37,932 nucleotides of DNA from positions 1 through 37,932 of IMG/VR virus record IMGVR_UViG_3300008114_001224. One strand, written 5' to 3'. The DNA is from a virus. Below the pieces are notes generated by a model. It was not told where the DNA came from. It saw only the letters and a list, made by a program, of their open reading frames with translations, and ran no database searches. Each line of letters begins with the position of its first letter. The stretch's first letter is position 1. This document shows, piece by piece, positions 1,735 to 35,307 of the stretch. The position numbers and the translations under genes are program-made.

Positions 1735-2109
1735 GTGACTCTAGAAGAAAAAGTACTTTGGGAAAAGGCAACTAATCTTGCAGAAGATAACCTGCAAGCT
1801 AGAGAATTATTTGAAAAATTAAAAACCAATACAATGCAACTAAAAGGAAAAAGGGTTTTATTAAACAAACCAGAAATGAAAGAATCTCCATTTGAATTAA
1901 GTGAAGCTGACAAGCAAGCAATTGAAATGGACATGAGAAAGACATGGACTAAGTTAGAAGTTTATGCTATCGGGGATGAAGTAGAATCAGTAAAAGTGGG
2001 GGATAAAGTCTACATGGGAATCATTGGACTTCAAGCATCTGAAGCGGTAGAGCTAGAAGATGGAGTAAAACTAATGGTAGCTGAACGAGACATTGCAATA
2101 GTATGGTAA
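1735..2109 (+). CDS. GroES-like co-chaperonin, 124 aa
   Basis: From about residue 36 the protein follows the GroES plan: 'MQLKGKRVLLNKPEM' as the first strands, then 'LEVYAIGDEVESVKVGDKVY', and a C-terminus 'GVKLMVAERDIAIVW', matching the family's 'GK.VLAVG..V..VKVGD.V' and 'V.E.DILAV'. GroES proteins cap the chaperonin GroEL; phages such as T4 (gp31) encode substitutes to fold capsid protein. The segment between the first strands and the 'VYAIG' stretch is longer and helical-looking, and could replace the mobile loop. I prefer GTG 1735 over TTG 1729 because of the promoter box; ATG 1834 is a third option that would remove an acidic, helical N-terminal extension. It overlaps the next gene by 7 bases. 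Confidence 0.65.
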   Translation: MTLEEKVLWEKATNLAEDNLQARELFEKLKTNTMQLKGKRVLLNKPEMKESPFELSEADKQAIEMDMRKTWTKLEVYAIGDEVESVKVGDKVYMGIIGLQASEAVELEDGVKLMVAERDIAIVW

Positions 2110-2411
2110 ACTTTACACAAGAATCAGAAGATATATATCAGAGTCAAATGAAAACACCGTTTGATAAGATAGTATCTAAACAGATACCACTTGAAGATAG
2201 ACTTGTAAATCTTGATAGACCCAAGTATTATGGCGGAGCAGGAAATACTTATGAGGTATTTAATGTACTAGAAGCCTGGGGATTAGATGAAGACTTTTAT
2301 CTAGGGAATGTTATAAAGTATTTAGCACGAGCTGGTAAAAAAACTTCTAATAAGAAAGAAGATTTACAAAAAGCTTTAGTATATTTACAACGAAGAATAG
2401 ATAAATTATGA
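2103..2411 (+). CDS. DUF3310-like protein, 102 aa
   Basis: Residues about 40-102 match the DUF3310 pattern: 'RPKYYGG...YEVFNVLEAWGL' then 'FYLGNVIKYLARAGKK' and 'KEDLQKALVYLQRRI'. This domain, sometimes labelled nucleotide kinase-like by distant similarity, is widespread in phages; its activity is not established. The N-terminal 40 residues are polar. Start and stop overlap both neighbours (ATG inside the upstream gene end; ATGA with the next gene), so it is part of the 1735-2853 operon. Confidence 0.75.
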   Translation: MVNFTQESEDIYQSQMKTPFDKIVSKQIPLEDRLVNLDRPKYYGGAGNTYEVFNVLEAWGLDEDFYLGNVIKYLARAGKKTSNKKEDLQKALVYLQRRIDKL

Positions 2412-2662
2412 GTGAACAAGTAGCCTTTAAAGAAACTAAGATATATTCTTTCGGGGATATCTTAGTAGGTTTGGACTCAGAAGAGATCAATGAGTCTGAA
2501 CAAATTATTGAATTGAGAAAGACCTTCTCTAAATTAGCAGAAGATCTTAAGGATAACTATAATGAAAACAGATCACCAGTAAAGAGTCTTTTGTTTGACC
2601 AAGCAATTGGAGAGATCACAAGAACATTATTGTTATCTGAGAAACTATTAAAAATGAAGTGA
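2408..2662 (+). CDS. Hypothetical helical protein, 84 aa
   Basis: Acidic, predicted mostly helical protein (LRKTFSKLAEDLKDNYNE, then IGEITRTLLLSEKLLKMK). No recognised motif. Linked by ATGA overlap to the DUF3310-like gene upstream and by TGATG to the small membrane gene downstream, so it is co-translated with them. Function unknown. Confidence 0.6.
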   Translation: MSEQVAFKETKIYSFGDILVGLDSEEINESEQIIELRKTFSKLAEDLKDNYNENRSPVKSLLFDQAIGEITRTLLLSEKLLKMK

Positions 2663-2853
2663 TGAGAATAGTTGCAATTATTATATTATTTACAGTTATT
2701 GCTATGTTATGGGCAATAGCACATTTACTATATAAGCCTGTGTATGATAAAATCTCACAGCAGTATGTAATTAATGAAGATGATTTTAAAATTGCAAATA
2801 TTTGCATTGGCGTTATGTTAGCTATTGCACTATCAATCGGCCTACTACTCTAG
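2662..2853 (+). CDS. Small two-span membrane protein, 63 aa
   Basis: Two hydrophobic segments, about residues 2-22 (RIVAIIILFTVIAMLWAIAH) and 43-63 (IANICIGVMLAIALSIGLLL), separated by a polar loop of about 20 residues. ATG 2662 shares bases with the upstream TGA and is preferred over GTG 2659. It is the last gene before a terminator. It could be a holin-like or other inner membrane protein, but the lysis cassette with its own holin lies elsewhere (10411-12040). Confidence 0.6.
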   Translation: MRIVAIIILFTVIAMLWAIAHLLYKPVYDKISQQYVINEDDFKIANICIGVMLAIALSIGLLL

Positions 2854-2882
2854 CCTGTTTTCCTTGTTTCTCATACAGGTAC

Positions 2883-2913
2883 AATCCCCGGTTGCAAAGC
2901 TGGGGATTTTTTT
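2883..2913 (+). terminator. Rho-independent terminator
   Basis: AATCCCC (2883-2889) pairs with GGGGATT (2902-2908), extended inside by GGTT/AGCT with wobble pairs around a GCAA tetraloop, then a run of seven T. It closes the accessory operon. Confidence 0.85.
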
Positions 2914-2922
2914 GTATATTAG
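2892..2922 (+). promoter_or_regulatory. Leaderless promoter of the appendage cassette
   Basis: TTG at 2892-2894, a 20-base spacer, then TATATTAG at 2915-2922, ending three bases before the ATG at 2926. The promoter overlaps the terminator hairpin, so end of one operon and start of the next are interleaved. Confidence 0.5.
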
Positions 2923-2925
2923 TGT

Positions 2926-3237
2926 ATGGCAGAAATCATTGAACAAGGTGAGTTAAATGTACTTGGTACTACACTAGCTACGGGTAGTACAGCTGTAGTA
3001 TCTACTAAACTATTAACAATGAGGTTTTATAATCCTTTAGCTTATGTACTTACTATAGAAAGATATGATGCATCAACAGCTACTAGTGAAGTATTATATG
3101 AATTTAATCTAGCAGCGGGTGACACAATTAATGATAACTTGCAATATGCGTTAAAAGCTGGAGACAAGATAACTGCTTATTCAGATATTCCAGGAACAAC
3201 ATACTATATTTACGGAGTAGACTATGCAACTGATTGA
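2926..3237 (+). CDS. Small structural protein, 103 aa
   Basis: First gene of the appendage cassette. A beta-rich protein without cysteine, with 'MRFYNPLAYVLTIERYDA' and an 'AAGDTINDNLQYALKAGDKI' turn, the character of a small virion jelly-roll or a fibre-attachment protein. No family recognised. It overlaps the following fibre gene by 14 bases, which suggests the two products are made together and may associate. Function inferred from position only. Confidence 0.6.
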   Translation: MAEIIEQGELNVLGTTLATGSTAVVSTKLLTMRFYNPLAYVLTIERYDASTATSEVLYEFNLAAGDTINDNLQYALKAGDKITAYSDIPGTTYYIYGVDYATD

Positions 3238-4633
3238 TAAGAATGGTAATGTCTTTGGTGGTGGAATAGAAATAACTGGTCCAGATGGAAAGCCAAAAAC
3301 AACAGGGGGCGGAGGTGGTTCACCTACAGGGCCAGCCGGGGGTGATTTATATGGTACCTATCCAAACCCTGGTGTAGATTGGAACTTGGGTATATCTACA
3401 TATAGCATGTATTATTATCCATTAAGTTCAAATCCTGCTGGATATATTACAACTGCAGCTCTCTCAGGTTATTTAACTGTGGCTACCGCAGCAAGTACCT
3501 ATTATCCGCTTACAAATCCTAATGCATTTATCTCAGGTATAACAGGATCAGATGTAGTAACAGCTCTTGGATATACTCCGTATGATGCAGCTAATCCTGC
3601 AGGATATATAGATTCATCTGCACTAACTCCATACTTAACATCTGCAACAGCAGCTACTACTTATCAACCAAAATTAACTTTAACTACTACAGGAACATCA
3701 GGTGTAGCTACTTTAAGTGGTGCCACATTAAATATTCCTAATTATACAAGTAGTGTTTCAGCAATAGATACTCAACTTTTTTTAAGCAGTGGTGTATGGA
3801 CTAAACCTACTGGAGCAAAATATGTAGAGGTTTATTTAGTTAGTGGTGGTGGAGGAGGTGGATCAGGCAGAAGGGGGGCAACTAATACTGCACGATATGG
3901 AGGTGGTGGTGGTTCATCTGGTTCTTTTAACATTGCTAAAATAAATGCGGACAATTTAGCTGCAACAGAAAATATTTGGATTGGTACAGGAGGAACTTCG
4001 GGCCCTGCTATAGCAGTTAATGATACCAATGGTTCACCAGGAGGTACTGGGGGACTTTCATTATTTGGTGGTTCAGGTACTGCTATTACTGCAAAACTTA
4101 CTACTGGAAATGGATTTGGTGGTGTTGGAGGAACTGCTGCTGCACAAGGTGGTTCTTCTATAGGAAACTCAGTTATGTTTGGGGTATTGTATAGCTCATC
4201 TATTTTTGCTACAGGAACATTAGGACCAGGTGCTTTTTCAGGAGGTTCAACTACTTATTTATCTAGACCATTAACGGGAGGTGGAATAGGTGGGGGCCTT
4301 AGTACAGTAAATGCAACTAATACAGGAGGTGGTGTTCTTATAACAGGTATTGCTACAACACAAACAATTGCAAGTGTTTCAACAGCATCAGCTGTAGGTA
4401 GTTCTGGAAATAATGGTAGTTTACTAACAAATAGTCCTTCAGGATTATTTTTTGCAAGTGCTGGAAGTGGTGGAAATTCTGGAGATGCAGCCGGCACTAT
4501 AGCTGGGGGTAGGGGTGGAAATGGAGGTCCTGGTGCCGGAGGTGGGGGAGGAGGAGCATCTGCAAATGGTGCAAACTCAGGCGCGGGCGGAACTGGAGGA
4601 AATGGTTTTTGTTTAATTATAACATATTTCTAA
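3224..4633 (+). CDS. Tail fibre with glycine-rich C-terminal domain, 469 aa
   Basis: The N-terminal half repeats tail-fibre type segments (YYPLSSNPAGYITTAALSGY, ITGSDVVTALGYTPYDAANP), typical of trimeric phage fibres. From residue ~190 'LFLSSGVWTKPTGAKYVEVY' introduces the glycine-rich domain (many GGGGG runs to the end, finishing GGNGFCLIITYF) found at the tips of fibres and adhesins, e.g. the sandwich of polyglycine helices in T4-like gp38 adhesins. The protein probably binds the host surface. Antisense frames here are shadows created by the glycine codons. It ends TAATG, overlapping the tiny gene that follows. Confidence 0.8.
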   Translation: MQLIDKNGNVFGGGIEITGPDGKPKTTGGGGGSPTGPAGGDLYGTYPNPGVDWNLGISTYSMYYYPLSSNPAGYITTAALSGYLTVATAASTYYPLTNPNAFISGITGSDVVTALGYTPYDAANPAGYIDSSALTPYLTSATAATTYQPKLTLTTTGTSGVATLSGATLNIPNYTSSVSAIDTQLFLSSGVWTKPTGAKYVEVYLVSGGGGGGSGRRGATNTARYGGGGGSSGSFNIAKINADNLAATENIWIGTGGTSGPAIAVNDTNGSPGGTGGLSLFGGSGTAITAKLTTGNGFGGVGGTAAAQGGSSIGNSVMFGVLYSSSIFATGTLGPGAFSGGSTTYLSRPLTGGGIGGGLSTVNATNTGGGVLITGIATTQTIASVSTASAVGSSGNNGSLLTNSPSGLFFASAGSGGNSGDAAGTIAGGRGGNGGPGAGGGGGGASANGANSGAGGTGGNGFCLIITYF

Positions 4634-7358: not shown

Positions 7359-8336
7359 ATGGATGTATTAAATTTTATAAGCTGGATTAAATCTTTAAAG
7401 ATTACCACTACTCTTCCTAATAATACTTTAATTCCTGTTGGAATTCAAGATCCTACTAGAGGAGATAGCTTTTTACCAGCTGTTATTACTAGTCAGGATT
7501 TATTAGCAAATCTTCCTGCGGGAGCACAAGGACCAATGGGTCCTCAAGGAGTACCAGGACCAGTAGGACCAGCAGGTCTTAACTGGCAAGGTGCATGGTC
7601 AGCAGCAGGAACATATGTTGTTGATGATGCAGTAGGTTTTGGTGGAGCATCTTGGTTTTGTATTGCCAATGTAGGACCAGGTGGAGTTAATCCTTCTGCA
7701 GATCCAACTAGCTGGGCATTATTAGCTTCCCAAGGAGCAACCGGACCTCAAGGTCCTCAAGGGATTCAGGGTCCTGTAGGTCCATCTGGAACAGCTACAC
7801 CAAGTTTTAGTAAAGTTCCATCAGGATTAGTTGTTGTAGCACCGGGATCTAATATAACTGTTACATTTAGCACAATACCTGCTAATACTTATAATAATAG
7901 CTCTTGGCCTATTTTTGCTATAAATACAGCTTTGCAAAAACTAGCAGCAGCAACAACTTTAAAAACAAAAGTTTATATAACTAATACAGCCCCTAATCAA
8001 GGATCTATTTTTAATGCTGTTGGAGCAACTCTTATTGCAGATACAGATACTGCAACATCAGGTGTAAATCAAAGGGTTGTAAAAATTGAAAAAGATATAT
8101 GGTTTACTAATAATGCTTGTCAATTTTTAAATAATGGAACAAACCCAAATGTAGGATTTTCTGATTCAGCTATTGGAAGTAATGCTGGAGCAACATATAA
8201 TTCTGGAATTTTTGAAAATGCAATGACAGCAGGATTTATAAACTGGTCACTTAATACATATATTGTAGTTACTGTAGAATCAGTTGGAGGGACTTCTACT
8301 ATTGCAGCTAGATATCTTTCAGTAGCAAGAATTTAA
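7359..8336 (+). CDS. Collagen-like fibre with carbohydrate-binding-like module, 325 aa
   Basis: I start at ATG 7359 because MDVLNFISWIKSLKITTTLP matches the anchor of both neighbours; an in-frame ATG at 7299 would add 20 residues inside the previous gene. After the anchor come Gly-X-Y collagen-like repeats (GAQGPMGPQGVPGPVGPAG), then a module 'GAWSAAGTYVVDDAVGFGGA-SWFCIANV...SWALLA' resembling CBM5/12 chitin-binding-like domains, then a second Gly-X-Y run (GATGPQGPQGIQGPVGPSG), and a ~170-residue beta-rich head. Trimeric host-binding fibre; the sugar-binding role is inferred from the aromatic pattern. Confidence 0.8.
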   Translation: MDVLNFISWIKSLKITTTLPNNTLIPVGIQDPTRGDSFLPAVITSQDLLANLPAGAQGPMGPQGVPGPVGPAGLNWQGAWSAAGTYVVDDAVGFGGASWFCIANVGPGGVNPSADPTSWALLASQGATGPQGPQGIQGPVGPSGTATPSFSKVPSGLVVVAPGSNITVTFSTIPANTYNNSSWPIFAINTALQKLAAATTLKTKVYITNTAPNQGSIFNAVGATLIADTDTATSGVNQRVVKIEKDIWFTNNACQFLNNGTNPNVGFSDSAIGSNAGATYNSGIFENAMTAGFINWSLNTYIVVTVESVGGTSTIAARYLSVARI

Positions 8337-8356
8337 TAATAATAATACAATAAATC

Positions 8357-8824
8357 ATGGATATTCTAAATTTTATTTCGTGGATTAAAGCTGGTAATTA
8401 TAGAACCACTTTACCAACAGATGTACCTAATCTTTTAGCAATTGGATCTAGAGATGTAACAAGAGATGATGCTTGGTTACCATTAGCAGTAAATGCAGAA
8501 CCATTACAATCATTATATGATAAAGGAACAGTAACTCAAACAATTGTTTCTAGTAATCCAGTAACTCTTAATTCAAGAAATGGAGTTGTTGAAACTGTAG
8601 CACTTACTACAGCAGCAACAGGACAAGAGTCATTTACTTTTAACAATGCTAACCTTACAACTAAATCAACTGTTCTTTTAACTGTTGAGTATTTTAGTAC
8701 TGGTTTTCCAGTGGTTAGTTTTGGTAATTTATCTGCAGGATCACTTACATTAGTTATATCTAATGTTGATGCTCTTAATGCATTAAATGGTGCTGTACGT
8801 ATACACTTTATGATCATTGATTAA
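8357..8824 (+). CDS. Appendage protein with MDILNFISWIK anchor, 155 aa
   Basis: Third copy of the anchor: MDILNFISWIKAGNYRTTLP then 'LLAIGSRDVTRDDAWLPLAV'. The remaining ~100 residues form a small beta-sandwich-like head (VTLNSRNGVVETVALTTAAT, ESFTFNNANLTTKSTVLLTV). Two bases separate its stop from the next gene. Together with 7015 and 7359 it forms a set of different heads on one base. Confidence 0.65.
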   Translation: MDILNFISWIKAGNYRTTLPTDVPNLLAIGSRDVTRDDAWLPLAVNAEPLQSLYDKGTVTQTIVSSNPVTLNSRNGVVETVALTTAATGQESFTFNNANLTTKSTVLLTVEYFSTGFPVVSFGNLSAGSLTLVISNVDALNALNGAVRIHFMIID

Positions 8825-8826
8825 TT

Positions 8827-10134
8827 ATGTCAATAGGCAATCTAAAGGACTACGGAAACAAAGGGAATAATTTCCCTTGGCAATATAGAATGTTGCTAGG
8901 TTTGGATACTATTAATGATAGTATTAATACAAATCTTGTATCCGCTGGCGCAATGGCTGTAGATGCCTTTGGAAGACAAAGAGTTTCTAATCCATTAACA
9001 TTATTTGATTCTTCCCATAGATATCATGACAATGGTTTATGGAATACATCTACTGCTAGTGGAGGTGCTGCCGTATTTAGTCCTAATGAAGGTTTAGTAA
9101 ATTTAAATGTAAATACTACAAATGGTTCTCAAGTACTACGTGAAACTACTAAAGTATTTTCTTATCAACCAGGAAAATCACTTTTAATACTTACTACATT
9201 TGTAATGTCTCCAGCTCAAAATAATCTTAGACAACGAGTCGGTTACTTTGGAACAGATAATGGTTTATATCTTCAATTAAATAACTACACACTTAGTTTT
9301 GTTGAAAGAAGTATAGTTACTGGAGTAGTTACTGAATCTGTAGTAGATCAATCAGCATGGAATGTTGATAAAATGAATGGTACTGGTCCTTCTGGTGTAA
9401 CATTAGATATTACCAAAGCTCAGATAATGTTTATGGATATTGAATGGTTGGGAGAAGGAACAGTAAGATTAGGTTTTATTATAGATGGTAATTTTATTGT
9501 GTGCCATAAATTTAATCATGCTAATTTAATTCCATCAACATATATAACAACTGCAACTCTACCATTGAGATATGAAATAACTAATATAGGAGTAACCGTA
9601 AATCCAAGTACACTAAAACAGGTTTGCTCTACAGTAATTTCTGAAGGTGGTTATGAATTAAGAGGTGCGCAACAAGCGATAGGTACTCCTATTACAGCTC
9701 CAACAAGTTTGGCTGTTGCAGGAACTTATTATCCAATAATAAGTATAAAATTAAGAGCAGGTTATTTAGATAGTGTAGTAATCCTCACAGCTCTTTCAAT
9801 AATGGGTGTAGCAACAGGTATTTACAATTGGAAAATAGTAGCATCTGGCACAACAACTGGTGGAGCATGGGTTCCTGCAGGAGTAAATTCATCAGTTGAA
9901 TATAATATTACAGGTACAAGTTTTGCAGGAGGAAGAATATTAGCATCCGGATTCTTAACATCAAGTACACAAGCATCAGTAAGTTTAGATATACTTAAAG
10001 AAGCATTGTTTAGTTTTCAACTTGAAAGAGATACTTTTACTAGTACTCCTTATGAGATTGCTTTAATAGTTAGTGCAAGTACAAATACTGAGCTTATTTA
10101 TGCATCAATGGACTGGGAAGAAGTAAGTAGATAA
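8827..10134 (+). CDS. Major appendage/structural protein, 435 aa
   Basis: The first 20 residues (MSIGNLKDYGNKGNNFPWQY) form a second anchor type shared with the gene at 10151. Residues ~48-260 follow a pattern I recognise from virion proteins of many unrelated phages: 'AFGRQRVSNPLTLFDSSHRY', 'SYQPGKSLLILTTFVMSPAQ', 'NLRQRVGYFGTDNGLYLQ', 'DIEWLGEGTVRLGFIIDG', 'LPLRYEITNIG'. Its precise structural role is not established. The C-terminal ~150 residues look like a beta sandwich (SLAVAGTYYPIISIKLRAGY). Likely a surface appendage or fibre base. Confidence 0.7.
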   Translation: MSIGNLKDYGNKGNNFPWQYRMLLGLDTINDSINTNLVSAGAMAVDAFGRQRVSNPLTLFDSSHRYHDNGLWNTSTASGGAAVFSPNEGLVNLNVNTTNGSQVLRETTKVFSYQPGKSLLILTTFVMSPAQNNLRQRVGYFGTDNGLYLQLNNYTLSFVERSIVTGVVTESVVDQSAWNVDKMNGTGPSGVTLDITKAQIMFMDIEWLGEGTVRLGFIIDGNFIVCHKFNHANLIPSTYITTATLPLRYEITNIGVTVNPSTLKQVCSTVISEGGYELRGAQQAIGTPITAPTSLAVAGTYYPIISIKLRAGYLDSVVILTALSIMGVATGIYNWKIVASGTTTGGAWVPAGVNSSVEYNITGTSFAGGRILASGFLTSSTQASVSLDILKEALFSFQLERDTFTSTPYEIALIVSASTNTELIYASMDWEEVSR

Positions 10135-14967: not shown

Positions 14968-15269
14968 TGGAGATATTTGAAAACATACCAACTTATGATA
15001 ATGGAACTTGGACTGTTACAGACTTTTCTTCAAGAGAAGAGTTTGCCAAGTTTTTAAGAGACTTATTTAAAGAACCAGGTAAATATAACTTTGATGAAAC
15101 TAGCTTATTATTTAATGCTGAATCCAGAAAGTTCAGACAAGACGGATATTACTGCGACTCTCCATTTAAATCCAAAGATTTTATCAATTACTGGGATGAA
15201 CAAAAACTCAGATGTAGGAGAGGAGTTATCTATAAATCAGAAGACAACATCTCAACTACAAGCATGTAG
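14967..15269 (+). pseudogene. terL: Large terminase, N-terminal fragment
   Basis: One hundred codons ending in a stop at 15267. 'FRQDGYYCDSPFKSKDFINY' and 'WDEQKLRCRRGVIYKS' match the N-terminal part of large terminases of this phage type, where the chain should continue through a segment containing 'Y.W.NF.PI' and 'Y..LYE..AEL' before the ATPase motif. Here it ends in 'EDNISTTSM' instead. The ATPase-motif coding continues in another frame from 15236. See the finding on the split terminase. Confidence 0.65.
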
Positions 15270-15310: not shown

Positions 15311-17035
15311 ATGGCTAAGCTTTTAAACCAGATATGGTTTGAGTCTGGGGTCACATTAAAGATAGGAGCAAGTCTTAAAGACTATATAAATGAGAAAGGC
15401 TCTTGGAAATTCTTAGATGAATATGCTGCATTCTTAAATGAACATACTGCTTGGTATAGACCAATGACTCCACACAAGGTAATGATGTGGCAACAGAAGA
15501 TAGAAGTTAGAAAAGGAGATAGAAAGAATGAGGTTGGTCTCAAAGGTACTATGCAAGGTATGTCATTTGAGAAAGATCCAACAAATGGTGTAGGGGGTCC
15601 GGTAAAGTTCTTTTTCCATGAGGAGGCAGGTATTGCTCCTAAGATGGATCAGACATATGAGTATATGAGACCAGCAATGAGATCTGGTTTAATTACTACA
15701 GGTATGTTTATAGCTGCAGGCTCAGTAGGGGATTTATCTCAGTGTAACCCTCTTAAGGATATGATCCTGAATCCTACTTCAAAAGATATTTATGCTGTAG
15801 AAACTAATTTAATAGACAGTAAAGGAACAGAAGGTCTCTCAGGTTTGTTTATTCCTGAGCAATGGTCTATGCCACCACATATAGACCAATATGGTAATTC
15901 ACAAGTAGAAGAAGCTTTGATTGCCCTGGAAGAACAATTTGAAAAATGGAAGAAAGAATTATCTCCAGAAGATTACCAGTTAAGGATATCTCAGCACCCT
16001 AGAAATATTGAAGAGGCATTTGCACATAGATCAGTATCTGTATTCCCTCCACATTTAGTAGCAGCACAAAGAAGAAGAATAGAAGAGAAGGAATATGCAT
16101 ATGAATTCTTAGATATATTCTATGATGAGAATGGTAAACCTGCTGTAAGAGAAACAACTAAACTCCCAATTATGGAGTTTCCTGTATCTAAAAAACTAGA
16201 AGATAAAACAGGAACATTAGTAGTTTGGGAAAGACCAATTAAAGATCCAACCTTTGGTCAGTATTATGCATCTATTGACCCCGTGTCAGAAGGTAAGACA
16301 ACTACCTCAGAATCACTGTGTTCTATTTATGTAATGAAAGCTCCAGTTGAAGTAACTAAGGTAACTGGCGTAGAAACAGAGACTTATCTAGAACAAGATA
16401 AAATAGTTGCAGCATGGTGCGGTAGGTTTGATGATATTAATAAAACTCATCAAAGATTAGAACTAATAATAGAATGGTATAATGCTTGGGCATTAATAGA
16501 AAGTAACATATCTCTTTTTATTCAATACATGATATCTAGAAAGAAACAAAGATATCTTGTACCAAAAGGACAGATTATGTTCCTTAAAGATCTTGGTGCA
16601 AATACTAACGTTTATCAGGAGTATGGTTGGAGAAACACGGGTAACTTATTTAAAGCTCACATGCTTAGTTATGTTATTGAGTATTGCAAAGAAGAGCTAG
16701 ATACAGAAACAAAACCAGATGGAACAATAGTAAGAACTAAATATGGAATAGAAAGAATTCCAGATCCTATGTTAATGAAAGAGATGCAAGAATACGTAGA
16801 AGGACTCAACGTGGATAGACTTGTAGCATTTACTGCTTTAGTTGCATTTATGAGGATTCAGCAATCAAATAGAGGATATGCTAAAAGAACAATCATGGAT
16901 GATGCAGCTAAAAACTTGCAAAAGTCAGAAAAAATGTTTAAATTAAATAGTAGTCCATTTAGGCATATGGGCAGCAACCGTGGATTAACAAATGGGTCAG
17001 TGTTTAAAAAATCCCCATTTAAAAATATAAAATAA
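15311..17035 (+). CDS. terL: Large terminase, ATPase and nuclease part, 574 aa
   Basis: The packaging motor that cuts concatemers and drives DNA into the head. Homologous coding begins before this ATG: the same frame is open from 15236 and encodes 'HLNYKHVAILKKRQIASSYF', the Walker A-like region of this terminase type. Within the part starting at 15311, 'GGPVKFFFHEEAGIAP' (about 95-110) is Walker B with the catalytic Glu, 'LITTGMFIAAGSVGDL' the coupling region, and 'GQYYASIDPVSEGKT' (D323) the first acidic motif of the RNase H-like nuclease. The ATG at 15311 is the first one available but would leave out the Walker A. Portal follows two bases later. Confidence 0.85.
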   Translation: MAKLLNQIWFESGVTLKIGASLKDYINEKGSWKFLDEYAAFLNEHTAWYRPMTPHKVMMWQQKIEVRKGDRKNEVGLKGTMQGMSFEKDPTNGVGGPVKFFFHEEAGIAPKMDQTYEYMRPAMRSGLITTGMFIAAGSVGDLSQCNPLKDMILNPTSKDIYAVETNLIDSKGTEGLSGLFIPEQWSMPPHIDQYGNSQVEEALIALEEQFEKWKKELSPEDYQLRISQHPRNIEEAFAHRSVSVFPPHLVAAQRRRIEEKEYAYEFLDIFYDENGKPAVRETTKLPIMEFPVSKKLEDKTGTLVVWERPIKDPTFGQYYASIDPVSEGKTTTSESLCSIYVMKAPVEVTKVTGVETETYLEQDKIVAAWCGRFDDINKTHQRLELIIEWYNAWALIESNISLFIQYMISRKKQRYLVPKGQIMFLKDLGANTNVYQEYGWRNTGNLFKAHMLSYVIEYCKEELDTETKPDGTIVRTKYGIERIPDPMLMKEMQEYVEGLNVDRLVAFTALVAFMRIQQSNRGYAKRTIMDDAAKNLQKSEKMFKLNSSPFRHMGSNRGLTNGSVFKKSPFKNIK

Positions 17036-17037
17036 CT

Positions 17038-19779
17038 ATGCAAGTATATAACGCATTACAGTTAAAAAAAGGTGCTAAAGTAGAGCAGAATAGAATGGGT
17101 AGTATTACCCAACCTTTGCAGTTTTTATCTAAAAAAGATAAAGATCCAGAATGGGCTGCTTGGAACTTAGACTGGTTAGAATGGAATGGTCTTAAGCAAA
17201 TCAGAAGAAATGCAAGAAGACTAATGAAAAACTATAAGCTTGCAAAAGGTATTATTGATAGATCTGATTATATAATTGAAGAAGATAATGAATATAAAGA
17301 TATAGTAGAATTATTAACTAGAGAAGAAGCATCAGCATTAGAGTTAAAGTTCTATCCAATTATTCCAAATGTTATTAATGTCTTAGTAGCTGAATTTGCT
17401 AAAAGATCAACAAAGCTTACATACAAAACCATTGATGAGTATTCATATAATGAAATGCTTGAGCAAAAAAGAAAAATGGTAGAAGACACTTTGATGTCTC
17501 AAGCACAAGTTAAAATTTCAGCAGCTCTTATAGAACAAGGATTAGATCCTCAATCAGAAGAAGCTCAACAACAATTAAATCCAGAACAATTAAAAAGTCT
17601 TCCTGAAATAGAGCAATTCTTTAAAAAGGATTATAGATCTATGGTAGAGCAATGGGCTTCACATCAGCATAAAGTGGATGTAGAAAGATTTAAAATGGAT
17701 GAGCTAGAAGAAAGAGGCTTTAGAGACATGCTTATCACAGATAGAGAATTCTGGCATTTCCATATGATGGAAGATGACTATGAAGTAGAGCTCTGGAATC
17801 CTGTAGTTACTTTCTATCACAAGTCTCCGGATGTAAGATATATATCTCAAGGTAACTGGGTAGGTAAGATAGATATGTTAACTGTATCAGATGTAATAGA
17901 TAAGTATGGTTACATTATGACTGAAGAACAGTTAAAAGCTTGTGAGGCTATTTATCCAATTAGATCTGGTGGTTATATTGTTGGAGGATATCAAAATGAT
18001 GGTACATATTATGATGGAACTAAATCACATGAATGGAATGTCAATATGCCATCTCTTGCATATAGACAATATACTACTGCTAGAGCCAATTCTATTATGG
18101 ATGGCGGTGATATTATAAACCAGATATTATCACAAGGAGAAGATTACTTTGACCAAGGTACTGCATACTTACTTAGGGTAACTCAAGCATATTGGAAGTC
18201 TCAAAGAAAAGTTGGTCACCTTACTAAGATTACAGAAGAAGGTGAAGTAACTAATGAGATTGTTACTGAAGACTACAAAGTAATTGATAAACCAATATAT
18301 GATACTAGATTATTTAATAATAAAACAAAAGATAATTTAGTATTTGGAGAACACATTGATTGGATTTGGATTAATGAAGTATGGGGAGGAATTAAAATTG
18401 GACCAAACATTCCTTCATTCTGGGGTATGAATAATCCAGGTGGGTTCTCTCCTATATATATCGGTATCCAAAAAAATAAAATTGGACCATTAAAGTTTCA
18501 ATTTAAAGGAGATCAAAGTTTATATGGATGTAAACTTCCTGTAGAGGGTTCTGTATTCTCAGATAGAAATACAAAGTCTACAGCACTAATAGATTTAATG
18601 AAACCATACCAGATTGGATATAACATTGTAAATAATCAGATTGCAGATATCTTAGTAGATGAACTTGGTACTGTTATTATGTTAGATCAAAACTCTTTAC
18701 CTAGGCACTCATTAGGTGAAGATTGGGGTAAAGGTAATTATGCTAAGGCTTATGTAGCAATGAAGAATTTCCAAATGCTACCTCTTGATACATCTATTAC
18801 AAATACAGAGAATGCATTAAACTTTTCTCATTTCCAGAAACTTGATCTAGAACAAACAAATAGATTAATGTCCAGGATTCAGCTTGCTAATTACTTTAAA
18901 CAACAAGCATATGAAGTAATTGGGGTTAATCCACAAAGAATGGGGCAACAGTTATCACAGCAAACCGCTACAGGAGTAGAGCAAGCTGTTGCAGCATCTT
19001 ATGCGCAAACTGAAATATTCTTTATTCAGCACTGTGATTACTTAATGCCAAGAGTACATCAGATGAGAACTGATTTAGCTCAATATTATAACTCTACTAA
19101 ACCATCTACAAGATTAACATATATCACAGGAGCAGATGAGAAAGTTAATTTTGAAATTAATGGTACAGATCTTTTAATGAGAGATCTTAATATCTTCTGT
19201 AGTACAACTGCAAATCATAGATCTATTCTTGAGCAATTAAAACAAATGGCAATTCAGAATAATACTACAGGAGCATCTATTTACGATCTTGGTAAGATTA
19301 TGCAATCTGAGTCAATTGCTGAAGTTAATACAGTACTTAAAGCATCTGATCAAAAACAACAAGCTCAGAAACAACAAGAAATGCAAAGTCAACAGCAAAT
19401 GCAACAAGAACAACTTCAAAAACAACAAGAGATTGAGCAAATGAAGATTGATGCACAAGCTGCTGAGAAAGAAAAAGATAGACAAAGAGATATCTTAGTT
19501 GCCGAAATTAGAGCTGCTGGTTATGGTTCTATGTCTGATGTTAATCAAAACATGATGTCAGACTATAATGATGCCATGAAAGAGATTAGATCAAGTGAAC
19601 AATACCAACAACAAACAGATTTGCAAAGAGAAAAAGAAGTAAATAGAATGTCTATTGAATCTCAAAAATCTCAAATTGAAAGAGAAAAAATCCAAGCGCA
19701 GAGAGATATAGCAGATAAACAGTTGCAAATTGCACAGGAAAACAAAAACAAATATGATAATAAGAATAATAAAAAATAG
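17038..19779 (+). CDS. Portal protein, 913 aa
   Basis: Follows the terminase directly and precedes the scaffold, the usual place of the portal. The core (about 20-760) is mixed alpha/beta with 'AAWNLDWLEWNGLKQIRRNA', 'IIPNVINVLVAEFAKRSTKL' and 'YEVELWNPVVTFYHKSPDVR', and 'GVNPQRMGQQLSQQTATGVE' near the expected tunnel region. Residues ~765-905 are an exceptionally Gln-rich coiled coil (QKQQAQKQQEMQSQQQMQQE), like the barrel extension of large podovirus portals. Forms the dodecameric DNA gateway and docking point for the terminase. Longer than most portals. Confidence 0.85.
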   Translation: MQVYNALQLKKGAKVEQNRMGSITQPLQFLSKKDKDPEWAAWNLDWLEWNGLKQIRRNARRLMKNYKLAKGIIDRSDYIIEEDNEYKDIVELLTREEASALELKFYPIIPNVINVLVAEFAKRSTKLTYKTIDEYSYNEMLEQKRKMVEDTLMSQAQVKISAALIEQGLDPQSEEAQQQLNPEQLKSLPEIEQFFKKDYRSMVEQWASHQHKVDVERFKMDELEERGFRDMLITDREFWHFHMMEDDYEVELWNPVVTFYHKSPDVRYISQGNWVGKIDMLTVSDVIDKYGYIMTEEQLKACEAIYPIRSGGYIVGGYQNDGTYYDGTKSHEWNVNMPSLAYRQYTTARANSIMDGGDIINQILSQGEDYFDQGTAYLLRVTQAYWKSQRKVGHLTKITEEGEVTNEIVTEDYKVIDKPIYDTRLFNNKTKDNLVFGEHIDWIWINEVWGGIKIGPNIPSFWGMNNPGGFSPIYIGIQKNKIGPLKFQFKGDQSLYGCKLPVEGSVFSDRNTKSTALIDLMKPYQIGYNIVNNQIADILVDELGTVIMLDQNSLPRHSLGEDWGKGNYAKAYVAMKNFQMLPLDTSITNTENALNFSHFQKLDLEQTNRLMSRIQLANYFKQQAYEVIGVNPQRMGQQLSQQTATGVEQAVAASYAQTEIFFIQHCDYLMPRVHQMRTDLAQYYNSTKPSTRLTYITGADEKVNFEINGTDLLMRDLNIFCSTTANHRSILEQLKQMAIQNNTTGASIYDLGKIMQSESIAEVNTVLKASDQKQQAQKQQEMQSQQQMQQEQLQKQQEIEQMKIDAQAAEKEKDRQRDILVAEIRAAGYGSMSDVNQNMMSDYNDAMKEIRSSEQYQQQTDLQREKEVNRMSIESQKSQIEREKIQAQRDIADKQLQIAQENKNKYDNKNNKK

Positions 19780-32279: not shown

Positions 32280-33833
32280 ATGAAACCTATAAATTTAGAT
32301 AATAGTCCATGTAGTCCAATATCAAGTAATTGTGTGATTTGGCAGGGTCCAGATATTCCATGTATTAAACTATGCACTGGAGATACTGTTTCCGATGTTA
32401 TTCATAAGCTTGCTACTGAGCTTTGCAATATCATGGATCTTTTAGATGTTAATGGTTATGACTTATCTTGTTTTGATTTAGCAAGCTGTAAGCCTCAAAA
32501 CATTCAAGAGTTAATTCAATTTCTAATTGATAGAATTTGTGCAATAGAAGCTGCTCAAGCGGCAGCTGCTGCAATACCAGCTACTAATGTAACTACTAGA
32601 TCAACATCCGCAGACACATTAGTTACTGTTGCGCCTTGTTTTGTTATAGGTACAACAACAGTCATGAATATTGCTGAATATGCTCAAGCAATGGGTTCTC
32701 CAGGAACTTATACACTTACTGAAGTATTAGATGCATTAGTAAATGACGGTACTTATGGATATTGTGCATTAAGATCTACTACAGGTTTACCAGCAGATAT
32801 TCTTGCAGCAGTTCAGTCACAATGCATAGTTGATACTGATGCTTCACTTGTATATGGGACACCATTTTCTGTTGCTTATTTAGGCCAATGGGTTCCTATT
32901 GCATCTACAAATACTGTAGCAGATGCAATTAATAACATTTGGCTTTCACTTTGTGATGTTTATCAGTATGTGAGTTCACTTTCATTTACTGGATCAACCA
33001 CTAATACAATTCAGCTTTCTGTTTCAACAGGTCCAGCATATTCTTTTTCTGCAAAAATCTTAGATACTGGTTGGATAAATCTTGATGGATTTGGATTCTA
33101 TACAGGATCTGATACAGATGCATTAAGACCAAGAGTAAGAAGAATTGGAACTACTTTGCATTTTAAAGGTCAAGTAATGATTCCTATTGATGATGGAGTA
33201 GGCGCACCATTATTATGGCAATATCAAAATACTCCACCAGTAGATACATATTATTTGTCTACTACTGTAACTCCTGCATCAGTTGGTGCTGGTTCTGTAA
33301 TTGCATCCTCTACTGGATTGATTACATTTAATCAAGGTGTGTCAGTTATACCAAACTCAGTAATGAGTGCATTAGAAAGCCTTGATGATAACTATACTAA
33401 AAACTTTACAATAGGTTATAGAAGAACTCAGATTAATTCTATTCCAGATACCAGTACTATTCTTACTACCATTGGAAGTTTATCAATTGCAAGTAATAAA
33501 ACGTTATCTTTTGCTTTACTTAAAAACGGAGAGCAAAATGCTTTTTCTGGAACAGATGCATTTAATACTTCTCATTTAAACTATGTTGTATCACATGTTC
33601 GTATTGGAGACTATGTTCCTAAGTTTGATAATGCAAATACTAATGTAAATAGTAATGTTGCACCAGGAACAATTGGTTTGGATATGGAATATGATACAAA
33701 CCTAAGATATCAATTTAGTTGTAATGCAAATGATGAAACAAATCTTGGAGGGTTTATATTTCAATTAGACGGGTTAATTGCTTATATAAATCCTTGTACT
33801 ACTGATATACCAACACCAATTGTTTGTCCTTAA
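32280..33833 (+). CDS. Tail adhesin/fibre protein, 517 aa
   Basis: A Cys-rich N-terminus (residues 1-95: SPCSPISSNCVIWQGPDIPC, IKLCTGDTVSDVIHKLATEL) that ends in helices with 'CAIEAAQAAAAAIPATNVTT' is the likely trimerising anchor. 'TDTDASLVYGTPFSVAYLGQ' and 'TVADAINNIWLSLCDVYQYV' introduce a second helical segment at ~215-240, and the C-terminal 260 residues form a beta-rich head (LDTGWINLDGFGFYTGSDTD, ALRPRVRRIGTTLHFKGQVM). No enzyme motif. Probably a receptor-binding fibre paired with the next gene, whose N-terminus has a similar 'TLADALNDIISYFCEF' helix. Confidence 0.65.
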   Translation: MKPINLDNSPCSPISSNCVIWQGPDIPCIKLCTGDTVSDVIHKLATELCNIMDLLDVNGYDLSCFDLASCKPQNIQELIQFLIDRICAIEAAQAAAAAIPATNVTTRSTSADTLVTVAPCFVIGTTTVMNIAEYAQAMGSPGTYTLTEVLDALVNDGTYGYCALRSTTGLPADILAAVQSQCIVDTDASLVYGTPFSVAYLGQWVPIASTNTVADAINNIWLSLCDVYQYVSSLSFTGSTTNTIQLSVSTGPAYSFSAKILDTGWINLDGFGFYTGSDTDALRPRVRRIGTTLHFKGQVMIPIDDGVGAPLLWQYQNTPPVDTYYLSTTVTPASVGAGSVIASSTGLITFNQGVSVIPNSVMSALESLDDNYTKNFTIGYRRTQINSIPDTSTILTTIGSLSIASNKTLSFALLKNGEQNAFSGTDAFNTSHLNYVVSHVRIGDYVPKFDNANTNVNSNVAPGTIGLDMEYDTNLRYQFSCNANDETNLGGFIFQLDGLIAYINPCTTDIPTPIVCP

Positions 33834-33844
33834 TAAATTAAACT

Positions 33845-35248
33845 ATGGCTACTAATACTTGTACAAATTGTGGATGTAAAAAATGTGGATGTGCAGACAA
33901 TGCACTAGTATCACCTGCACCATGCCCAACTCCGGCTGGATGTCCTATAGAATGTGCTAATGAGGTTGTTGTTGCAACAGATACTAATCTTGCAGATGCA
34001 TTAAATGATATTATTAGTTATTTTTGTGAATTTGTTGTTGCACCATCAATAGGTGCAGTAGTTAATGTATGTGGAACAAATGATTATTTATCTGTTACAT
34101 CTACAACTAATCCATCTACTGGAGTTACTACATATACAGTATGCTTTGATCCAAATGAATTACCTGTTTATCTTGTAGATTATGGAACAGGAATTAATGT
34201 TACATCATCTACCGTAGGTAATACTACATCTTATATTGTTAGTAATACTGATCCGGGATCTGCACAAAATATTTTTAAAAATATTGCTGTAGCTGGTCAA
34301 TCAACAGTAATTGCAGATAGTAATAATGATACATTAACTTTAGCTGCCGGTACTGGCATTCAGATTACAACTAATGCAATTACAGATGAAATAACAATTA
34401 CAAATAATAGTCCGGCATCATCCGTTGGATTAGGGGATGCTGGTACTGGGGCGCATGAAAGTTTAGTAAATGATGGCACTGGACCATCATTAGCTACCAA
34501 AGGTTTAAAAGCTGGTACAGGAATTTCATTATCATCAACTGCTACAGATATAACTATATCAGCACCCTCTGTGGTTTCACCAAATCTTTGGGCAACATTT
34601 ATTGGTGATGCAGGATTTACAACAGCCAATACGCCAGTTGATATACTTACAGTAATTGGTGGTAAAGAAATATCTACTAATATAATAGGAGATACTCTAA
34701 TAATAAACAGTTGGGATTATGAAATTGGTGAATATGTTTCAACGGAAGGTGGGGTAATATTCCATAGATGGTTATCTGGAACGCCTGGAGGATCACCTGG
34801 TCCAGGATCAGTTCAAAATTATCTTGTTGTTGATACAAATGATTTATCTACATCAGCACAATGGGCTTCTTTAAATATAGATATTTCAAATGTTGAAAGT
34901 ACATGGGATGGTAAAACTAATACTACAAATCTAATTGCCGCAGGAGCACCTGGTGGAATTACAGTAGGTACCGCAGCTCAATTATGTGATGCAAGTACAA
35001 ACAATGGTAAAACAGACTGGTACCTCCCAGCCATAGATGAATTAAATAAATTATTTAATAACAGATGGGAAGTAGCACAAGGAATAACAAGTTCTGGAGG
35101 AACTCAGTTAGTCTTCACCTCCTATTGGAGTAGTACGGAGTACGACAGCAGCACCGTGTGGTACTTCTTCTTCTCCAGTGGGGGTGCCTTCAACGCCTTC
35201 AAGAACTCCACCTACTATGTGCGTGCGGTAAGGAAGTTTAATACATAA
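33845..35248 (+). CDS. Receptor-binding protein with diversified lectin-like C-terminus, 467 aa
   Basis: N-terminus MATNTCTNCGCKKCGCADNA is a Cys cluster, followed by 'LADALNDIISYFCEF' (helix) and long beta repeats (GTGIQITTNAITDEITITNN, GTGISLSSTATDITISAPSV). The last ~90 residues (GKTDWYLPAIDELNKLFNNR, YWSSTEYD, STYYVRAVRKF) match the DUF1566/Fib_succ_major lectin-like fold used as the display scaffold by diversity-generating retroelements in Bacteroidota phages. The final 45 codons are GC-rich and biased unlike the rest of the gene (see variable region). The protein likely binds the host receptor and is varied by targeted mutagenesis. A strong terminator follows. Confidence 0.8.
   Translation: MATNTCTNCGCKKCGCADNALVSPAPCPTPAGCPIECANEVVVATDTNLADALNDIISYFCEFVVAPSIGAVVNVCGTNDYLSVTSTTNPSTGVTTYTVCFDPNELPVYLVDYGTGINVTSSTVGNTTSYIVSNTDPGSAQNIFKNIAVAGQSTVIADSNNDTLTLAAGTGIQITTNAITDEITITNNSPASSVGLGDAGTGAHESLVNDGTGPSLATKGLKAGTGISLSSTATDITISAPSVVSPNLWATFIGDAGFTTANTPVDILTVIGGKEISTNIIGDTLIINSWDYEIGEYVSTEGGVIFHRWLSGTPGGSPGPGSVQNYLVVDTNDLSTSAQWASLNIDISNVESTWDGKTNTTNLIAAGAPGGITVGTAAQLCDASTNNGKTDWYLPAIDELNKLFNNRWEVAQGITSSGGTQLVFTSYWSSTEYDSSTVWYFFFSSGGAFNAFKNSTYYVRAVRKFNT
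35111..35245 (+). other. Probable DGR variable region (VR)
   Basis: Codons 423-467 of the adhesin gene. In the core, 35141-35215, 19 of 25 codons end in C (TAC, GAC, AGC, ACC, TTC, TCC, GCC, AAC), while first and second positions vary: what results when adenines of AAC codons in a template are randomised. The remaining core codons (GTG TGG, AGT GGG GGT, AAG) punctuate them. The conserved ends are TCCTATTGGAGTAGTACGGAG upstream (in part) and GTGCGTGCGGTAAGGAAG downstream, where the initiation site for mutagenic homology would lie. No template copy or reverse transcriptase was seen in the window. Confidence 0.75.
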
Positions 35249-35283: not shown

Positions 35284-35307
35284 AACCCCTGCACTTGCGG
35301 GGGTTTT
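35284..35307 (+). terminator. Rho-independent terminator
   Basis: AACCCCTGC (35284-35292) pairs with GCGGGGGTT (35297-35305) with one G-U, around a 4-base loop (ACTT), then TTTT, G C, TTTT. It closes the adhesin transcript just after the variable region. In some DGRs a hairpin follows the VR and aids retrohoming, which this could also do. Confidence 0.85.

Follow-up and report, generated by a model that had tools for sequence, protein, structure and literature searches.

The C-terminal tip of an adhesin encoded by a freshwater crAss-like phage is, as its sequence indicates, a genuine variable repeat (VR) of a diversity-generating retroelement (DGR), and the phages with this tip probably rely on bacterial machinery for their variability, as the mutating enzyme is absent from this phage and from dozens of others with the same tip. 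It appears fairly likely that the template repeat (TR), Avd and reverse transcriptase (RT) belonging to the phage VRs are not phage-borne, and that bacterial DGRs of Bacteroidota diversify the phage adhesins in trans. Because adenine-specific change occurs in phages that have no RT, a bacterial DGR acting in trans would be the simplest account.

The phage and its adhesin

The DNA analysed, here called the window, comprises positions 1-37,932 of the IMG/VR record IMGVR_UViG_3300008114_001224 (37.9 kb) and can be assigned to an incomplete genome piece of a freshwater crAss-like phage. Its terminase, which marks the freshwater phage lineage, has viral relatives that are up to 97% identical, and its portal also matches portal proteins from uncultured crAss-like phages. 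A further contig, G004, is nearly identical to the window from 14530 to the window end, save for a few indels, and adds 15.6 kb beyond. The ORF that is entered by the 3' end of the window encodes, in G004, a Crassvirus muzzle protein (crAss_MUZ PF25731, E=1.7e-21), and with this the two proteins used for Crassvirales membership, a crAss-like portal and a muzzle protein, are both present. Window and G004 together cover about 53 kb, and the terminase relatives reach 115-122 kb. Relative to G004, the window has gaps of 133, 195 and 153 bp plus several short ones (L191/L192; window positions 15250, 23910, 32695 and 33945-33973), of which the 133 bp gap falls where the terminase gene begins; these gaps may be assembly artefacts or true deletions.

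In the PHROG comparison, residues 243-446 of the adhesin match a baseplate wedge tail fiber connector, and the PHROG scores of the protein are E=5.7e-10 for phrog_677 and E=1.2e-20 for phrog_4245. Its C-terminal end is a Lcl_C (DUF1566) domain, whose Pfam match exceeds the curated cut-off. A sequence-only reading of this DNA had proposed a DUF1566 scaffold with a lectin-like fold, of which the domain holds by sequence; the fold is putative, its AlphaFold model being of low quality (pLDDT 57.6) and therefore set aside. The VR lies at the 3' end of the gene for this putative ligand-binding scaffold and stops a few codons before the stop codon.

The same reading had noticed that the tip is GC-rich inside an AT-rich gene, which is correct (GC 0.48-0.52 versus about 0.35), and our recount agrees with its 19 C-ending codons out of 25 in 35141-35215, as compared to 5.8% in the remaining adhesin gene (binomial p=4e-19). 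Codon bias as sole proof of a VR was nevertheless rejected, as similar C-ending runs exist elsewhere in the window, e.g. in a minus-strand frame at 33345-33381 that scores 19-20 of 25 by composition. As such runs are not unique, the proof of the VR has to be the template match.

Table 1. Positions of features in the window and in the Bacteroidota contig L044
Contig	Feature	Position	Strand	Basis or remark
Window	Terminase large subunit	15311..17035	+	PHROG 6681
Window	Portal protein, crAss-like	17038..19779	+	PHROG 6547, E=5e-95
Window	Adhesin/tail-fibre-like target gene, 467 aa	33845..35248	+	ORF call, translation
Window	Lcl_C (DUF1566) domain, C-terminal end bears the VR	34901..35233	+	Pfam PF07603, residues 353-463, E=1.5e-12
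Window	DGR VR, homologous to the L044 TR	35123..35229	+	edges set from 17 distinct phage VRs
Window	5' constant anchor TATTGGAGTAGTACGGAG	35123..35140	+	base-for-base common to unrelated phages and Bacteroidota VRs/TRs
Window	3' constant anchor CTATGTGCGTGCGGT	35215..35229	+	TR homology ends here; IMH-like end position
Window	GC-rich inverted repeat AACCCCTGCACTTGCGGGGGTT, then T's	35284..35305	+	read from sequence
L044	VR	1645		end of a 321-aa DUF1566 protein
L044	bAvd gene	1823-2167		between VR and TR
L044	TR	2286-2392		variable codons nearly all AAC or AAT
L044	RT	2458-3726		3' of TR; DGR motif IGNLTSQ

The template in a Bacteroidota cassette

The pattern TGGAGTAGTACGGAG-(NNC)5-GCGTGG was run on a set in which each bacterial or archaeal species is represented by a single genome, and gave six contigs, every one of which is labelled as a Bacteroidota MAG. 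One of them, L044, is a 4.5 kb Chitinophagaceae MAG contig of a lake bacterium that holds two copies of the pattern and a complete cassette in the order VR-Avd-TR-RT (Table 1). Its TR contains the element TATTGGAGTAGTACGGAGAACGACAACAACAACGCGTGG, and its second codon is GAC. This is the repeat that the sequence-only reading had suggested to search for, i.e. one that matches the adhesin tip except at template adenines, and its AAC and AAT codons bear out the proposal that the tip was derived from mutated AAC codons. The RTs of the MAGs are of DGR type, with the motifs IGNLTSQ and YVDD. The exact template is known from this one short MAG contig; the other five contigs (L043, L045, L046, L047, L048) come from bacterial MAGs bearing DUF1566 VRs of the L044 type, and no matching TR was found near their binned RTs.

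Over the first 104 nt, the window VR is changed relative to the L044 TR at 22 of 43 adenines and at 2 of 61 non-adenine positions (p=8.6e-9), and in the half that was not touched by the search pattern the changes affect 18 of 29 adenines versus 1 of 36 others (p=1e-7). VR and TR therefore differ almost solely at TR adenines, which is what defines a DGR target, and the changes fall nearly throughout on first and second codon positions, as had been supposed from the codons of the tip. The compositional C-ending runs mentioned above could suggest that the tip is an ordinary DUF1566 domain with a chance or codon-bias artefact, but this is extremely improbable, since even the half that had played no role in the search matches an independent template in an adenine-specific manner. 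On the basis of this match, the L044-type Bacteroidota DGR is taken as the template source.

Seventeen distinct phage VRs align in register to the L044 TR with 0-4 non-adenine mismatches, leaving 57-61 of the 61 template non-adenines unchanged in genomes that are AT-rich. The edges of the block are sharp, as the 40 nt upstream and the bases past GTGCGTGCNGT have background identity only, and the limits of 35111-35245 that had been drawn for the VR must therefore be narrowed to those of the template-homologous block (Table 1). Inside the block, the constant bases are kept even at synonymous sites, and the surrounding phage genes are AT-rich and often unrelated. In homologous adhesins such as those of L009 and L010, the tip is of the ordinary AT-rich kind, and the VRs of L017 and L018 are partly eroded.

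Absence of the machinery from the phages

The assumption that the retroelement resides outside the window is supported, as RT and TR are absent from the window, from the additional 15.6 kb of G004 and from larger relatives, and the evidence best points to Bacteroidota chromosomes as its location. The RVT_1 profile detected no RT in 83 phage records, which comprised the window, 52 records with the VR block or a homologous adhesin, and 30 terminase relatives including those of 115 and 122 kb; with the same profile, an RT was recovered from 20 of 20 RT-bearing viral control records and from 6 of 6 MAGs. The phage records without an RT include those of 61-296 kb that bear the same VR block. In the window and G004, which represent an incomplete genome, there is neither a DGR-clade RT near the VR nor a TR, and the next best site in a template-rule scan has 25-27 non-A mismatches in 111. 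With the TR as query, 23 VR-bearing phage records, among them those of 120 and 296 kb, gave VRs only, and a scan of 2.9 million viral contigs for the constant pattern also gave VRs and zero TR. Named phages and plasmids that were searched with TR and VR DNA gave zero matches.

Could the machinery be encoded beyond the sequenced part of the phage genome, as an ordinary phage-encoded DGR with its own RT, Avd and TR? The window is a fragment, which leaves room for an own RT, and human-gut crAss-like phages of several groups do encode complete DGRs (PMC7290462, PMC12386605, PMC11054128). However, neither RT nor TR is found within 35 kb upstream and about 18 kb downstream of the VR, while in the examined viral loci with related RTs the TR is only about 0.5-0.9 kb away from the VR and near the RT. 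The above-mentioned lack of an RT in the long same-VR records and in the 115 and 122 kb terminase relatives also argues against it, as do the viral RT relatives, which are at most 61% identical to the L044 RT and have other templates where examined: no L044-type template occurs in these loci, and that of L111 is a cousin. We therefore regard a phage-encoded DGR as rather unlikely.

Variation of the block among phages

Over 4.9 kb, the two phage contigs L067 and L069 share 98.6% identity, and 21 of their 68 differences are inside the VR, 20 of them at TR adenines and 1 at another position. Close relatives thus vary in a manner that is concentrated at the template adenines of the VR, as expected for DGR targets, and it follows that phage copies become diversified. 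In case of the window, the VR of the adhesin is identical in G004, and no second variant of it was found. Other clonal groups of near-identical genomes also keep one VR, as do L014 and L016 at about 4-5% flank divergence. Because identical VRs persist in such groups, including window and G004, the VR activity is at most episodic.

The VRs of L067 (minus strand), L069 and L076 are of DGR type and belong to small stand-alone DUF1566 proteins of 116-118 aa that are encoded in phage replication regions (DnaB-like helicase, primase, Sak4-like annealing protein, UDG), which shows that such VRs are not confined to tail adhesins. In the 79 kb phage L003, two adjacent DUF1566 genes (8327-8995) have VRs that match different bacterial TR types, namely AGT-AGT...TTC-TTC and AGT-TCT...AAG-CAG.

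It could be argued that the phage VR is a decayed remnant of a DGR that once existed in the phage lineage and whose diversification has ended, as in many alpha crAss-like phages, the genomes of which hold VRs without TR or RT (PMC7290462). The partial amelioration in L017 and L018 and the identical VRs of window and G004 would fit such a decay, but it is hardly compatible with the almost complete retention of template non-adenines by 17 phage VRs despite AT-rich genomes, nor with the recent adenine-site change between L067 and L069, and it is thus very improbable.

The strongest rival to an action in trans is recombination: by way of short homologies, the phages might have captured VRs that were already diversified, either on bacterial chromosomes or in other phages, in which case the variability would be bacterial in origin and no retrohoming onto phage DNA would take place. 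The sharp edges of the block, anchors of only about 18 and 15 nt, the absence of the hairpin described below, the persistence of identical VRs in clonal groups and the two TR types next to each other in L003 are all in line with such a capture. On the other hand, no VR among the sequences compared is shared in identical form by a phage and a bacterium, and the wholesale switch of adenine sites between L067 and L069 would require repeated capture between tiny anchors. Capture by recombination is hence considered unlikely, albeit less so than the other alternatives.

Bacterial sister cassettes and the downstream hairpin

Sister cassettes are present in the bacterial contigs L101-L104 and L106, and partial ones in L274, L105 and L110, which together represent several bacterial families. 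The Bacteroidota cassettes of L103 and L104 have T9SS sorting-domain (Por_Secre_tail) proteins next to them, with cytochrome c and an M28 peptidase as further neighbours in L103 and an MFS transporter in L104, and these neighbour genes indicate that the cassettes are on bacterial chromosomes. The neighbourhood is conserved in different genomes, as L044, L103 and L104 each encode a T9SS sorting-domain protein of 162-170 aa immediately before the DUF1566 DGR target, the domain being Pfam-confirmed in L103 and L104 and recognized by eye in L044.

Most bacterial VRs, cis as well as remote, have CCGCGAAGCGGTCGATTTT or a close variant 40-66 nt downstream (L043, L044, L045, L046, L102, L103, L104, L106, L107). 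As DNA, GCGAAGC forms a highly stable mini-hairpin, and the element downstream of the bacterial VRs is likely a recognition element. None of the 17 phage VRs is followed by CCGCGAAGCGGTCGATTTT or the GCGAAGC hairpin; the window VR has the 3' anchor CTATGTGCGTGCGGT, and the hairpin is missing downstream. The inverted repeat AACCCCTGCACTTGCGGGGGTT behind the adhesin gene is, by its appearance, probably an ordinary terminator of this gene and not of the hairpin type that follows bacterial VRs.

Proposed diversification in trans

Returning to the favoured action of a bacterial DGR in trans, the donor would be a chromosomal DGR family of freshwater Bacteroidota that normally diversifies a DUF1566 protein of the bacterium itself. 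In an infected cell, cDNA made from the bacterial template and mutated at adenines would be pasted in trans into the phage VR, guided by two stretches of identity, of about 18 nt (5' end) and 15 nt (3' end), and the phage would thereby obtain a new receptor-binding tip. The cDNA may enter where replication forks expose single strands of phage DNA to which it can anneal, and annealing proteins of the phage might assist. This route is favoured over a hairpin-directed homing because the phage VRs do not have the GCGAAGC hairpin of most bacterial VRs, and the Sak4-like annealing protein encoded by L067 would suit such a step. We infer the action in trans, the annealing route and the receptor binding from the data described above. 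With regard to precedents, a donor plasmid has been shown experimentally in the BPP-1 system to target a separate recipient phage or plasmid, with very short 5' identity being enough (PMC3240598), the downstream stem-loop boosts efficiency but is not strictly required (PMC12875486), and DGR cDNA is thought to exploit the single-stranded lagging-strand template (PMC12875486).

A further-reaching idea, for which we see about even chances, is that unrelated RT-less phages of freshwater Bacteroidota form a guild that keeps short template-identical landing sites in the adhesins, so that the DGR of the host, having evolved to vary a protein of the host itself, rewrites the adhesin tips during infection; this would amount to a natural system of mutagenesis in trans that uses host machinery. 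If bacterial DGRs indeed serve phages in trans, hypervariable phages are undercounted, RT-less "incomplete" DGRs of crAss-like phages may need a reading other than decay, and the arms race acquires a twist in which the mutagenesis machinery of the host is exploited by the host's own viruses. DGR surveys begin from the RT and by their own account overlook remote targets (PMC8144416), and our search of the open-access literature gave no report of a bacterial DGR that acts on phage VRs.

Comparison with known systems

The proposed system resembles the DGR of the Bordetella phage BPP-1 (mtd) in adenine-specific mutagenic retrohoming, which affects the 3' end of a gene for phage receptor binding, and in the use of Avd and an RT with a TR, and the BPP-1 system works with donor and recipient on separate replicons (PMC3240598). 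It differs in that BPP-1 has its own cassette and a hairpin after the VR, whereas the phages described here have the VR only and do not have the hairpin of bacterial VRs. With the DGRs of crAss-like phages (crAssphage LMMB, zeta and epsilon groups) it shares the crAss-like phage and a VR in a tail or receptor-binding protein, but those cassettes are phage-encoded, whereas here Bacteroidota hold the template and unrelated phages have the VR block in common; crAss-like VRs without TR or RT have been described as incomplete cassettes (PMC7290462). Similar to remote or partial DGR targets (Nanoarchaeota, PMC4372165; PMC8144416), the VR gene has no RT of its own and would be served by an RT elsewhere, but in those cases donor and target are in the genome of one cell, and here they would be divided between a bacterium and an infecting phage. 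The L044-type chromosomal DGR of Bacteroidota itself, with its DUF1566 target, bAvd, TR and IGNLTSQ RT, has the same constant bases and the same domain and differs by the CCGCGAAGCGGTCGATTTT element that follows most bacterial VRs.
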